Below, piece by piece: positions 28,829-38,194 of a stretch of 38,194 nucleotides of DNA. The translations under genes were made by a program, and so were the position numbers. The DNA is from Gammaproteobacteria bacterium (GTDB lineage: Bacteria > Pseudomonadota > Gammaproteobacteria > GCA-2400775), in NCBI GenBank assembly GCA_016765075.1, contig JAESQP010000137.1, positions 1 to 38,194 of the forward strand, written 5' to 3'. The notes beneath the pieces were generated by a model. The model did no database searches and had not been told where the DNA came from. It saw only the letters and a program-made list of their open reading frames with translations. The number at the start of each line of letters is the position of its first letter. Position 1 is the stretch's first letter.

Positions 28829-29254
28829 ATTATTTATAGTATGGCTTGCTAATGACTTTATAGTTGGCTGTGCATGGGCTTATTTTTTAGCAGGTTTGCT
28901 CGTAGTACTTGAAGGGCATGTTGGGTTTGGCCGTACCGCGTTATGCCATTATGAAACTGTAGTTCAGCAATCTCTAATTCTTGCCGTTCCTATTTGGTTG
29001 GCTGTCTGCCAACACATTTTGATAGCCACATCACACTTTTCACAACAGCCAAAATACATAGCTTTGCCTTGGCTTAAACTTGAGGCTAGACCTAAAGCTG
29101 CTCACATTCAAGCTAGATGGCCTGTTTGTGCGCTAATCGTTACTTTTCAATCCCAGTAAAATACGCTTCTCTGAGTTGTGAACTCAATCACCGTTCTTAA
29201 TCGATTTTAGAGACAGAATCCAACCCATATTTACAGCACTCCACGGTGATTGGT
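28829..29254. other. Gene-free gap before the polysaccharide-lyase lipoprotein
   Basis: About 425 bp. An open frame (28896-29159) lies here, but its translation is rich in Gln, His, Cys and Trp, has no ribosome site and no family resemblance, so it is not called. No terminator with a T-run was seen after the upstream GT4, and no clear -35/-10 or -24/-12 pair was found for the lipoprotein gene. Confidence 0.5.
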
Positions 29255-31477
29255 ATGGGTCTACGTTTACTTTCTTCAGTTTTGATTTTTCTGATATCGA
29301 TTGCTGTTACTTCTTGCGGTGGCGGTGGCGGTGGCGGTGGCGGTGGCGGTGGCGGTAATAATAATGCATCGCAAGAATCAACGGTTACTATTCTCGGATC
29401 GGGCATTAAAGGCATTCTCGCCAATGCGACGGTTTCAATATACGAGCTCAATATATCACTGCCATTGTCCTATGATCCAGCGCTCCCTCTTGCGTCAGGC
29501 GTGACAGATTCCGTGGGCAGGCCTGCTTCTTTGGAGATTCCAACAAGCATATCTAGACCCCTAGTGTTAGTCGTTGACGGTGCGAGCAGTATCGATCTTA
29601 ACAGCAACCAAACTCCTGTCATTACGAATTTAACAAGCATCTTTACAATTCAAGATGCTTTGGCGGGTAATCCAATTTTCGCTACCCCGTATACAACGAT
29701 TGCGCATGAAATGGTAAAGCTCAACTCAACAAGCAGCTCTTCCAACACGGCCTTTCATGATAATTTTGCCGCTGCGATAACGGATGTTGGTATGGCGCTT
29801 GGTTTCGGCACTGAAACAAGTGTAAATTTTCTTACGACACCTGCTGTATTAAGTGAGACTACGTTAAGCCAAGCGCAACAAGGTGCGATTATTCAGCATC
29901 GTGCAGCTATTGAGGCGCTAGCCGCAATCATCGTCGAACTCAGAAATGCCTCGGGCAATACGCTATCTGCAGGGGATGTTGTGGTAAAGCTTGCAGATGA
30001 CCTTTTTAATGATGGCCAGATTGATGGTGACAGTGGGCTCGATATATCTGCTATTCCTGCGAATGTCGAAAACCTATATGTTCCAGATACGCAATTTCGA
30101 ATCAAAGATATTAGCCTCATTCTTGAGTCAGAGCGTCAATACACAGGGGTGAATACAAGCTCTGTTAGCTCCTTATCACCAACCCTAATGGCGCCTACAC
30201 TATCATCAGATAATAGTAGACCTGTAGTAGATAACAATGGTGGTTCTACCGGAGCCAATACAGAGGTTCCAGAGCCCGTTATTTCTTTTTCCACAAGTGC
30301 CGCCAACTTTGGTCGTATTTCAATGGGTGCTAGCGCTGATATGTCAGTCATATTGACCAATATTGGTGGTGCGCCACTGGTCATCACCAATATTTCAACA
30401 GCAGCACAACAGAGCTTTACCCAAACAAACGATTGTAATGGCTTTGTGCCAAGCGGTCAGAGTTGCGTAGTAAACATTACCTTTTCCCCTGCTGGGTTGG
30501 GCAACAGGAGTGATGTGCTCTTAGTCAATGGTGATGGGGCAGCAACACGAACCGTCAGTTTGCTAGGCGTGGGTGATAGTGGAGTGTTGCCAGAAAACAC
30601 TGTTTTGGACGTTGATTTTGAGCGCCTGAGCCGAGGTGCATATCGGGAATCAGACTTACGATCAGATTTTAACGTAGGTGTAAACGGTTATAACGATACC
30701 GTTCATGGACCTAATGCTAACTCTATGGATATTATTGCAGACCCAGCGAATTCAGGCCGTGGTAATGTTTTACGTGTCTTGCACCGAGAAGGCAGAGGCG
30801 GCAATAGCGTTCGAGCCGGTGGTTTTCGGTTTCGTGCAGATTTTCCTGCCACAGAAGAATATTATTTTGCCTACGATGCTTACTTCCCCAATGGCTGGTT
30901 TCAACCGTTACAACACAAAATGCCTGCAATGATGAGCACTACCAACTTGCTTAATGCGTCGCATTTGCATAATGTGAGGCCGCACGAAACGACAATACCG
31001 GGGTTCAATACTCGAATGCAAACTTTTTCAAATGCTGCATATGGTCGCGGTGATGGGAGCTTTTCCAGTATTGTTTATGACAAGGAGAGCGTGCAACAGC
31101 CTCGTTGGGCTAATTACATAAGTCCAACAGATACTGACTTCAGGACTCAAAGAGAAAACTTGGCCGGACAATATATTATGCCGCGTGGCCGCTGGGTTAA
31201 AATAGAACAGCGTGTAAAACTCAATACGGTCAATGTCAGAGACGGGCTTATGCAGATATGGATGGATGGGGAGCTAATTTATGATCGAACACATTTATGG
31301 TTGGCAGATACAAACTACCCAGGAAACTTGGTATCCAATGCCAACAGAAAGATCGATGGGGTTTTTATGTATAGCTATTATGGTGGCAACCCCTCTGATC
31401 CGAGGAATCGACCACCTGCTGATAATTACCACTATTATGATAACTTTATCGTGTCTGCTTCGCCGATCACACATTAG
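29255..31477 (+). CDS. Lipoprotein with choice-of-anchor D domain and PL14-like polysaccharide-lyase domain
   Basis: This 740-residue exported protein has a lipoprotein signal (hydrophobic 5-19, lipobox VTSC, Cys21), then 13 consecutive glycines as a spacer, an N-terminal alpha/beta region (about 45-340), an ASH/choice-of-anchor-D-type Ig-like domain (about 342-442; NFGRISMGASADMSVILTN...CVVNITFSP), and a C-terminal jelly-roll domain (about 450-740). The last has YYFAYDAYFPNGW, QHKMPAMM and YSYYGGNP...YHYYDNFIVS, the layout of alginate/glucuronan-type lyases (PL14/PL20-like). It likely cleaves uronate polymer at the cell surface; substrate is inferred from neighbouring algD. The start is ATG 29255 (GTG 29246 possible). 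A close paralog ends at 37923 on the other strand. Confidence 0.72.
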   Translation: MGLRLLSSVLIFLISIAVTSCGGGGGGGGGGGGGNNNASQESTVTILGSGIKGILANATVSIYELNISLPLSYDPALPLASGVTDSVGRPASLEIPTSISRPLVLVVDGASSIDLNSNQTPVITNLTSIFTIQDALAGNPIFATPYTTIAHEMVKLNSTSSSSNTAFHDNFAAAITDVGMALGFGTETSVNFLTTPAVLSETTLSQAQQGAIIQHRAAIEALAAIIVELRNASGNTLSAGDVVVKLADDLFNDGQIDGDSGLDISAIPANVENLYVPDTQFRIKDISLILESERQYTGVNTSSVSSLSPTLMAPTLSSDNSRPVVDNNGGSTGANTEVPEPVISFSTSAANFGRISMGASADMSVILTNIGGAPLVITNISTAAQQSFTQTNDCNGFVPSGQSCVVNITFSPAGLGNRSDVLLVNGDGAATRTVSLLGVGDSGVLPENTVLDVDFERLSRGAYRESDLRSDFNVGVNGYNDTVHGPNANSMDIIADPANSGRGNVLRVLHREGRGGNSVRAGGFRFRADFPATEEYYFAYDAYFPNGWFQPLQHKMPAMMSTTNLLNASHLHNVRPHETTIPGFNTRMQTFSNAAYGRGDGSFSSIVYDKESVQQPRWANYISPTDTDFRTQRENLAGQYIMPRGRWVKIEQRVKLNTVNVRDGLMQIWMDGELIYDRTHLWLADTNYPGNLVSNANRKIDGVFMYSYYGGNPSDPRNRPPADNYHYYDNFIVSASPITH
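29318..29356 (+). repeat. Hexanucleotide GGTGGC repeat encoding polyglycine
   Basis: Six and a half perfect copies of GGTGGC encode 13 glycines right after the lipobox cysteine. Gain or loss of whole units keeps the frame and only changes linker length. It is the most repetitive tract in the window. Confidence 0.95.
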
Positions 31478-33486: not shown

Positions 33487-35508
33487 ATGATTGATAAAGG
33501 GAAGTGGTTGGTAAAGCGCTTGCAGTGTATGTCCTTGCCGGAAATATTGCACCGCGTAGTAACGTTAATTAAAAATAGTCTAGAGAAGTTAGGCCTGATT
33601 ATTGTTAGTGACCCGCCCTCGCCTAACTTGGTTAACCAATCAATCTCTTGGTTTGGGAAAAACAAAAGCGAGCAACCAGCATCTTATTGTCAAGCCTCGG
33701 ATAAGACCATACAGGGTTTGTTAAACGTTTTTGATTTACGTGACCAATATGTTGGTACCCCCCCCCAATGGAACCAAGACCCGTTATCGGGGAAAAATGC
33801 GCCAATGGTTTTTGGTAAGACGCTCGATTACCGTAACGAGAAGTTGGTTGGTGATATTAAGTATCTTTGGGAGCCTAGCCGACACCTTCATCTGGTTACC
33901 TTGGCTCAAGCGTATTCCCTCACTCAGTCAGAAGATTATCTTAATGTTCTAAAGTTACATTTAGATTCCTGGTTTGACCAGTGTCCGTATTTGATGGGGC
34001 CACAATGGGTGAGTTCGCTGGAACTGGGAATTCGTCTTATTAATTGGTATCTCGTATGGCAGCTAGTTGGCGGCCTCGAATCAACATTATTTAAAGGAAA
34101 AGAAGGCGAAGAATTTCGTGACAGGTGGCTAAAATCGATTTATCAGCATGTTCACTTTATAAAAGGGCACTATTCTCGCTATTCATCAGCTAATAATCAT
34201 TTAATTGGAGAGGCGTCAGGTGTGTTTATTGCTACTGTTGGATGGCCATTCTGGTCGGAATTCAATCAATGGCGAAAAGAAGCTGCAAGTATATTAGAAC
34301 GTGAGACATTGCTACAGAATACCGCTGATGGTGTGAATCGCGAGCAGGCCATTGCTTACCAACAATTTGTCTTGGACTTCCTGATTATCTCAAAATTGAC
34401 AGCAGATTCGAATCAGTGCGAGTTTTCTAGTGCTTGGGATGCACGTTTGGAGAGTATGCTTGAGTTTGTCGCATCGATAATGGATGTTGCTGGCCATATT
34501 CCGATGATAGGCGATGCAGATGATGGTTTTGTTGTTGGTTTGGTGCAAGGCGAAAATAATTGGTGTCCATTTAGATCATTGCTAGCTACAGGCGCTATTT
34601 TGTTCAACAGAGCTGATTTTGCTGTCAAGTCAGGTGGGTATGATGGTAAGAGTCGATGGCTTCTAGGTGATCAGGCTTTAGAGAAATTCGAGTCTTTAAG
34701 CGCTAACGATGTTTCTTTGCCAGTTAGAAGAGAGTTCGTAGAGGGTGGCTACTATATATTAGGTGACAAGTTCGAGAGTGAAGAAGAAATTAAAATAATA
34801 GCTGATGCAGGGTCGTTGGGGTATCTTGGTATTGCCGCACATGGGCATGCTGACGCGCTTTCGTTTACGTTGTCAGTAAGTGGTGAGGAAATATTAATAG
34901 ACCCTGGCACCTATACCTATCATACCCAGAAAGAGTGGCGTGATTATTTTCGGGGTACCGCAGCCCATAATACCGTGTGTATTGATGGCCAAGATCAATC
35001 GGTTATCGGTGGTAATTTTATGTGGCTGCGAAAAGCAGAAATTTCCGACGTTGAGTGGAGCGTTGATGCCGATGAGGACTCTCTTTGTGCATCCCATAAT
35101 GGGTATATGCGGTTTTCTGACCCTGTTCGTCATACAAGAACAATACGTTATGATAAAGCTGAGAAAAAGATTTTTGTTGCCGATACCATAGCGTGCAGCG
35201 ATGAGCATCTAGTTGAGTTGTCATGGCATTTTAGTGAGCTATGTAAAGTTGAAAAACGGCCAGAAGGAGTTGTTATTGTCAATGGTAAAGCTGTAGTGGT
35301 AATAAAAATTGCTGATTCAGAAAAAGGTCAGCTTAAAGTCGTATCCGGTGGAAGCGACCCACTGCAGGGTTGGATTTCTCGGCGATTTGGTATGAAAGAA
35401 CCGGTGTCTACGGTGGTGTTTTCGAGAAAAGTCCACGGCGATACAGAGTTACATACAGAATTTGAAATCAATCCGATTGATATTTCAGATTCAAGTTCAA
35501 GTATTTGA
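33487..35508 (+). CDS. Heparinase II/III-like polysaccharide lyase
   Basis: This 673-residue protein has an N-terminal alpha/alpha-toroid (about 40-380) and a C-terminal beta-sandwich (about 400-650). Family marks are YSSANNHLIGE with Asn236-Asn237-His238 in the active-site cleft and HGHADALSFTLSVSGEEILIDPGTYTY with His452 and His454, then RGTAAHNTVCIDGQDQS. The family cleaves uronate-containing glycans (heparin, alginate) by beta-elimination; members in EPS gene clusters are often annotated only by homology. There is no clear signal peptide, so the site of action is uncertain. A C9 homopolymer near codon 91 is a potential slip site. It is followed after 13 bp by a GT2 gene. Confidence 0.85.
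   Translation: MIDKGKWLVKRLQCMSLPEILHRVVTLIKNSLEKLGLIIVSDPPSPNLVNQSISWFGKNKSEQPASYCQASDKTIQGLLNVFDLRDQYVGTPPQWNQDPLSGKNAPMVFGKTLDYRNEKLVGDIKYLWEPSRHLHLVTLAQAYSLTQSEDYLNVLKLHLDSWFDQCPYLMGPQWVSSLELGIRLINWYLVWQLVGGLESTLFKGKEGEEFRDRWLKSIYQHVHFIKGHYSRYSSANNHLIGEASGVFIATVGWPFWSEFNQWRKEAASILERETLLQNTADGVNREQAIAYQQFVLDFLIISKLTADSNQCEFSSAWDARLESMLEFVASIMDVAGHIPMIGDADDGFVVGLVQGENNWCPFRSLLATGAILFNRADFAVKSGGYDGKSRWLLGDQALEKFESLSANDVSLPVRREFVEGGYYILGDKFESEEEIKIIADAGSLGYLGIAAHGHADALSFTLSVSGEEILIDPGTYTYHTQKEWRDYFRGTAAHNTVCIDGQDQSVIGGNFMWLRKAEISDVEWSVDADEDSLCASHNGYMRFSDPVRHTRTIRYDKAEKKIFVADTIACSDEHLVELSWHFSELCKVEKRPEGVVIVNGKAVVVIKIADSEKGQLKVVSGGSDPLQGWISRRFGMKEPVSTVVFSRKVHGDTELHTEFEINPIDISDSSSSI
33758..33766 (+). 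repeat. C9 homopolymer inside the heparinase-like gene
   Basis: Nine consecutive C residues encode Thr-Pro-Pro at about codons 91-93. The gene is in frame with nine. Loss or gain of one C would truncate the protein soon after. Tracts of this length are typical contingency-locus mutational sites. Confidence 0.9.
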
Positions 35509-36434: not shown

Positions 36435-36980
36435 ATGAAGAAAGTACTGCTTATATCGAATTATGTATTTCACTATAGACTAACTATCTATAATCATTTC
36501 TATGATGAATTTAAAAAACTGGGATACGAATTTCATGTGTTGAGTAACCAATACCAGGAGTCTGATGTTGACTGTAGATTTGTCAAACATGTAAAACCAT
36601 TTTCTGTTTTTGGCTACATTAAAAAGATACGCTCAATTAGACCTGATGTGGTGATAAACTTTTTGCATCTTAAGGATAAGATGATATTTTCATTAACGTT
36701 GTATTGCAGGATTAGCAGGATACCGATGATTTATTGGAATCATGGTGTTAATTTAAGCAAATCGGATGATAAGTTGCTAGGCTTAATATACAAAACGATA
36801 CATAAGTTAAGTGACGCTGTATTGTTGTATACGCCTAATGAGTTAAAGTTCATCTCCCCATATTCCAGAGATAAAGTATTTATTGCATATAACACGCTTT
36901 GTTTTGATGCTGCCGATAGGGTCGGAATTTTGAGTAAGGATGCCGTAAAAAAAAATATTCGATTAAGGAAGAAAAAGTAA
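36435..36980 (+). CDS. Glycosyltransferase family 4, N-terminal part (frame broken)
   Basis: These 181 residues form the N-terminal acceptor domain of a GT-B glycosyltransferase: MKKVLLISNYVFHYRLTIYN, then IRPDVVINFLHLKDKM and YWNHGVNLSKSDD. The family-like sequence stops at the A9 run (codons 171-173); the last eight residues (NIRLRKKK) are an out-of-frame tail. The donor domain continues immediately in the -1 frame (36953-37498). Without slippage the product lacks the sugar-nucleotide-binding half and should be inactive. The merged length would be 354 residues, normal for the family. The start is ATG at 36435. Confidence 0.75.
   Translation: MKKVLLISNYVFHYRLTIYNHFYDEFKKLGYEFHVLSNQYQESDVDCRFVKHVKPFSVFGYIKKIRSIRPDVVINFLHLKDKMIFSLTLYCRISRIPMIYWNHGVNLSKSDDKLLGLIYKTIHKLSDAVLLYTPNELKFISPYSRDKVFIAYNTLCFDAADRVGILSKDAVKKNIRLRKKK
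36947..36955 (+). repeat. A9 slippage site joining the two halves of a GT4
   Basis: Nine A residues sit exactly where the reading frame of the glycosyltransferase must shift by -1. Ten As in the DNA or mRNA, or a -1 ribosomal slip on AAA-AAA, would fuse the halves as VKKKYSIKEEKVILFISRLV. Confidence 0.8.
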
Positions 36981-37498
36981 TATTATTTATATCGAGATTG
37001 GTGCCTTATAAAAAACTGGATTTGTTGTTACAGTTATTTTGTGAAGAAAGTGGTGTGGCTGTAGTGGTGGTTGGCCCAGGTATCGAGGAGAAGCAAGCGA
37101 AATTGATCAATGAAACGCCTCATTATTACTATTTGGGGGCGAAGTATGGAAGGGAAATTAATGAAATATACAATATGGGGGATGTGTTCAGTACGCCGGG
37201 GCATATCGGCTTGGCTTTGATTCAGGCTTTTTTTTGGGGAAAGCCGGTGGTACTTCTAAACACTAGGCATGCTCCCGAGATATTTTATATGAAAAATGGA
37301 AAAAATGGCTATCTTGTAGAAAGTTCGCGAGAGCTGAAAGAAAAAATACTCTATTTGCTAAGAAACGAAGAAGTATGTAACGAGTTTTCACGCAATGCCA
37401 GAGATACGATAGATAGAGATGCGGATATAAGTAAAATGTTTGGTGGGTTTCGAGAGGCAGTGGACTATTGTACAAATAAAAACCAGCTTAAGTTATAA
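36953..37498 (+). CDS. Glycosyltransferase family 4, C-terminal part (frame broken)
   Basis: These 181 residues are the donor-binding half of the same GT4: EEKVILFISRLVPYKKLDLL is the conserved start of the second Rossmann domain, followed by VAVVVVGPGIEE, HYYYLGAKYGREINEIYNMGDVF and PGHIGLALIQAFFWGKPVVLL. It has no good start of its own; a TTG at 36998 is the first candidate but lacks a ribosome site and would cut off the first strand. It depends on frameshifting from the upstream part. The organism may carry an inactive allele, a phase-OFF state, a slippage-expressed enzyme, or the sequence may hold a homopolymer error. Confidence 0.7.
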   Translation, partial: KYSIKEEKVILFISRLVPYKKLDLLLQLFCEESGVAVVVVGPGIEEKQAKLINETPHYYYLGAKYGREINEIYNMGDVFSTPGHIGLALIQAFFWGKPVVLLNTRHAPEIFYMKNGKNGYLVESSRELKEKILYLLRNEEVCNEFSRNARDTIDRDADISKMFGGFREAVDYCTNKNQLKL

Positions 37499-37922: not shown

Positions 37923-38194
37923 TTAATGTGTTATTGGTGAGCCAGATACGATAAAGTTATCGTAATAGTGGTATTGGTCGGCAGGCGGACGATTTCTTGG
38001 GTCGTTTGGATTGCCGCCGTAGTAGCTATACATATAAATACCGTCCCATAGTCGAGTGCTCGCAGCGTCACGCCAATTATGATTATGATCATAAATCAAC
38101 TCTCCGTCCGCCCACATCATCATTTTGCCGTTGTTTAAGCCGTTGGTGTTGACCTTTACATATTGCTCTATCTTGACCCAGCGACCACGCGGCA
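37923..38194 (-). CDS. C-terminal fragment of a second PL14-like polysaccharide lyase
   Basis: The minus-strand frame is open to the window edge and gives the last 89 residues. It reads PRGRWVKIEQYVKVN, then MWADGELIYD, YMYSYYGGNPNDPRN and YHYYDNFIVSGSPITH. It is nearly co-linear with the end of the lipoprotein at 29255-31477 (PRGRWVKIEQRVKLN, YSYYGGNPSDPRN, NFIVSASPITH), except for a loop about nine residues shorter. The DNA is clearly more diverged than the protein, so the duplication is old and held by selection. Whether this copy has the same lipoprotein and anchor domains cannot be seen. Confidence 0.72.
   Translation of the reverse strand, partial: PRGRWVKIEQYVKVNTNGLNNGKMMMWADGELIYDHNHNWRDAASTRLWDGIYMYSYYGGNPNDPRNRPPADQYHYYDNFIVSGSPITH

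Follow-up and report, generated by a model that had tools for sequence, protein, structure and literature searches.

The exopolysaccharide-type cluster in the DNA stretch analysed here (38,194 nucleotides, hereafter the window) contains a GT4-type glycosyltransferase gene whose reading frame is broken at a run of nine As (A9). Most probably, this is a real and recent one-base slipped-strand change in a laterally acquired gene, giving an OFF or low-expression allele, a reading that builds directly on the break itself, its position between two domains, the intact homologues and the undecayed second half. We propose that replication slippage at the A tract would have generated the one-base change, that the change would be reversible, and that slippage of RNA polymerase at the nine As would let a fraction of the mRNAs encode the full-length enzyme. 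Since runs of nine As are published sites of RNA-polymerase slippage in vivo at high efficiency (review PMC5009743), some full-length enzyme may persist.

Two halves of one glycosyltransferase

The first open reading frame (36435–36980, plus strand) starts with ATG at 36435 and comprises 181 codons, with the stop codon at 36978–36980. The A9 tract occupies positions 36947–36955 of the same strand, and the second half (36956–37498, plus strand), read in the −1 frame, is uninterrupted across the tract and up to a stop codon at 37496–37498. The site of the break is also the longest A run in the window. In so A-rich a gene, a run of this length arises by chance in about 7% of first-order Markov simulations, i.e., it is not rare, and what departs from chance is the exact coincidence of the frame break with the run, rather than the presence of the run as such.

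Together, the two halves have the layout of a GT4-type (GT-B) enzyme, with two Rossmann domains, and they can be aligned with intact homologues over their entire length. The first half carries the N-terminal, GT4-like domain, for which the Pfam match is weak and below the curated cut-off (PF13439, 7e-5), and the second half the C-terminal nucleotide-sugar-binding domain, which is strongly matched (PF00534, 1.9e-20) and has the C-terminal domain of staphylococcal TarM as its best solved relative (1.3e-12). As judged from these assignments, the break lies in the linker that joins the two Rossmann domains.

When one genome per species was scanned, three relatives of the gene came up, all in Fibrobacter MAGs. 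Two of them (L002 and L004) encode a protein of about 348 codons in one frame. The third (L003, 6001–6936) is truncated near the C-terminus, ending around codon 300, and seems to have lost part of the C-terminal coding region to a deletion. Identity to the intact homologues is 52% in the first half and 55% in the second, with no gaps inside either half, and the DNA alignment contains a single one-base gap in the gene body, at the first A of the tract; no other indel occurs over the first ~300 codons. The sequence-only reading, according to which two GT4 halves meet at nine As with a frame offset of one base, is thus borne out by the ORF coordinates, the Pfam matches and the homologue alignment. 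In the comparison of tract lengths among relatives that it proposed, the A run proved absent from the Fibrobacter homologues, which have AAGGCGGCCTAC or a similar sequence at this point and a single reading frame, and the site is therefore not conserved. No orthologue was found in four congeneric and 90 other genomes of the class, where the second half gave generic glycosyltransferase matches only (26–38% identity). The first half had no match in 368 other genomes of the class-wide set, and a plasmid search returned no relatives on plasmids.

Origin, age and surroundings of the gene

The GC content of the gene is 33% in the first half and 38% in the second, compared with ~45% for the genome, and because of this composition and the failure to find an orthologue in congeners, the gene looks laterally acquired. 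The second half contains no internal stop and no indel, and it has kept the blocks that are conserved in the homologues. Under simulated neutral substitution, the probability that it stays free of stops is 0.78 at 1% divergence, 0.30 at 5% and 0.04 at 15%, and with indels included at one-tenth of the substitution rate, the value at 5% divergence falls to 0.02. Because survival of the second half becomes improbable as neutral divergence grows, either the break is young or the second half is still under selection, and the data do not separate the two. The earlier argument against an old pseudogene is supported by the ungapped alignment and the open frame, and a decayed pseudogene does not fit, since additional disabling mutations are missing from the second half.

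Upstream of the gene are glycosyltransferases, a polysaccharide lyase 14-like gene, an AMP-binding protein and a heparinase-like gene, together with what we take to be PrsK/PrsR-like regulators and Wza-like and chain-length-like genes. The cluster is of the exopolysaccharide type. Its heparinase-like gene (33487–35508) is intact, and its frame stays open through a C9 tract at 33758–33766 (plus strand). This second run of an unstable type is located 3.2 kb from the A9 tract, and the whole 2.0 Mb genome has just five G/C runs of at least 8, this one included; its proximity to A9 is suggestive, and was spotted after the fact. A heparinase-like paralogue elsewhere in the genome (L072, C98:692-2598; 34–40% identity) looks like a decayed copy from its sequence, which carries both a frameshift and a TGA in frame, away from long homopolymers, and the same contig, C98, opens with an apparent 3′ end of a polysaccharide-lyase-14-like gene. 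The contig that forms the window ends within a second copy of such a gene (37923–38192, minus strand), which is 70% identical to the C-terminus (30746–31474) of the protein encoded at 29246–31477, and a third copy is found on C122. These copies may have broken the assembly at the contig end.

Assembly accuracy, recoding and gene loss

An error in the consensus or assembly, such that the true tract differs by one base or the sample is mixed and the gene is intact, is unlikely, yet it retains appreciable weight. The draft genome is fragmented (163 contigs), homopolymers are the usual location of such errors, and the whole 2.0 Mb lacks A runs longer than nine bases, where about three would be expected by inference from a roughly five-fold drop per added base; this is a weak hint of under-calling. 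On the other hand, the A9 tract of the glycosyltransferase is the only one of 15 exact A9 tracts in the genome that splits a gene: eight of the other 14 are inside intact ORFs of 246–616 codons, and the rest are intergenic or near gene ends. A coding-frame HMM applied to ~280 kb produced many same-strand frame changes, almost all between ordinary adjacent genes. The suspicious ones, presumably AddB-like/AddA-like, methyltransferase/RnhA and argS/SPOR-domain pairs, were ruled out as frame breaks when their translations, read by eye, proved to be those of normal neighbours. Apart from the decayed heparinase-like paralogue on C98, this sample revealed no other unexplained frame break, with the proviso that the HMM is blind to the glycosyltransferase gene, which has a foreign composition, and may miss breaks in laterally acquired genes. 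An assembly generally riddled with frameshifts was rejected after the scan. Because the other coding A9 tracts are intact and no other unexplained break was encountered, a systematic homopolymer problem is unlikely, and the assembly error suggested by the sequence-only reading loses ground in its generic form. The eight intact coding tracts also imply that A9 is not wildly unstable in this organism, and homologues of MutS and MutL are present with open ORFs, so that nothing obvious marks the genome as a mutator; both points count against the preferred reading of a slipped-strand change. Loss of mismatch repair was rejected on the presence of the two homologues.

Programmed recoding, either by −1 ribosomal frameshifting or by programmed transcriptional slippage, would give a regulated proportion of full-length enzyme. 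The slippery heptamer A_AAA_AAA at 36947–36953 has the zero-frame phase that is correct for −1 slippage, a purine-rich AAGGA is located 6 nt upstream, and nine As are enough for slippage of RNA polymerase (PMC5009743). We nevertheless consider programmed recoding very unlikely. No stimulatory RNA structure was detected in the 88 nt downstream (z = +1.39) or in the 121 nt around the site (z = −0.59), a search for known RNA elements in the window gave no Rfam match, and ribosomes of E. coli slip far less readily on A_AAA_AAA than on A_AAA_AAG (review PMC5009743). The intact homologues, being tract-free and in a single frame, lend no support to conservation of the site, and a conserved recoding site was rejected on that account; programmed recoding, another option of the sequence-only reading, is not supported by these results. 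Unprogrammed rescue via transcriptional slippage is plausible from the published behaviour of nine-A runs. The position of the break in the interdomain linker would also suit an enzyme of two polypeptides, with domains made separately and then assembled. This can hardly be entertained, considering that the first usual start codon of the second half (TTG 36998) is downstream of the first β strand, that the first ORF ends in about nine out-of-frame residues past the A tract, and that the complete homologues found are single-chain proteins. An ordinary, irreversible young pseudogene, in which a dispensable gene was first broken at its weakest point, is improbable. Loss of such genes is exemplified by the decayed heparinase-like paralogue with its frameshift and stop, and the missing orthologue in congeners points in the same direction, but the second half carries no additional lesion, although a recent loss would look alike.

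Contingency control and related systems

An indel at a homopolymer is a familiar type of event, and exopolysaccharide clusters are a usual home of contingency loci. The A9 tract is a simple repeat that could be unstable, and it lies inside the coding region of a glycosyltransferase from such a cluster. The one assembled allele is compatible with phase variation at A9, and the population may switch or may simply carry a young inactivating mutation. A more elaborate version of the slipped-strand reading, a contingency locus in which two homopolymers would act as switches (A9 in the glycosyltransferase and C9 in the heparinase-like gene), where the OFF allele would leak full-length enzyme via transcriptional slippage and polymer decoration would be graded instead of on/off, is distinctly improbable. 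Poly-A contingency control of surface sugars has been described chiefly in pathogens. If the change is real and variable, such control would be extended to an uncultivated bacterium, with possible effects on phage attachment or biofilm. At present, the finding amounts to a frameshift of one base, seen in a single draft genome.

Programmed transcriptional slippage is known from dnaX of Thermus thermophilus, which similarly has nine consecutive A/T where the frame breaks (PMC5009743). In dnaX, the output of two products is functional and the tract is common to other species (PMC3711429), whereas the A9 tract described here is absent from homologues. Genes that are intact but for one indel in a long A tract are likewise seen in Blochmannia and Buchnera, where rescue of poly-A frameshifts by transcriptional slippage has been proposed (PMC3017870 and its references). 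Those genomes are extremely AT-rich and hold 114–153 coding poly-A tracts of at least nine (PMC3017870), in contrast to ~45% GC and 15 A9 tracts in total in the present genome. The closest precedent is Vibrio cholerae O1, where one-base deletions in the coding A tracts of wbeL (A8 to A7) and manA (A9 to A8) likewise affect genes of surface-polysaccharide biosynthesis (PMC3441752). The V. cholerae work documented two alleles, a phenotype and, in manA, reversion as well, whereas our case consists of one assembled allele of a different enzyme with the tract in the middle of the gene. As for the leakage considered above, the A7 OFF allele of wbeL still yields some product through non-standard decoding (PMC3441752).
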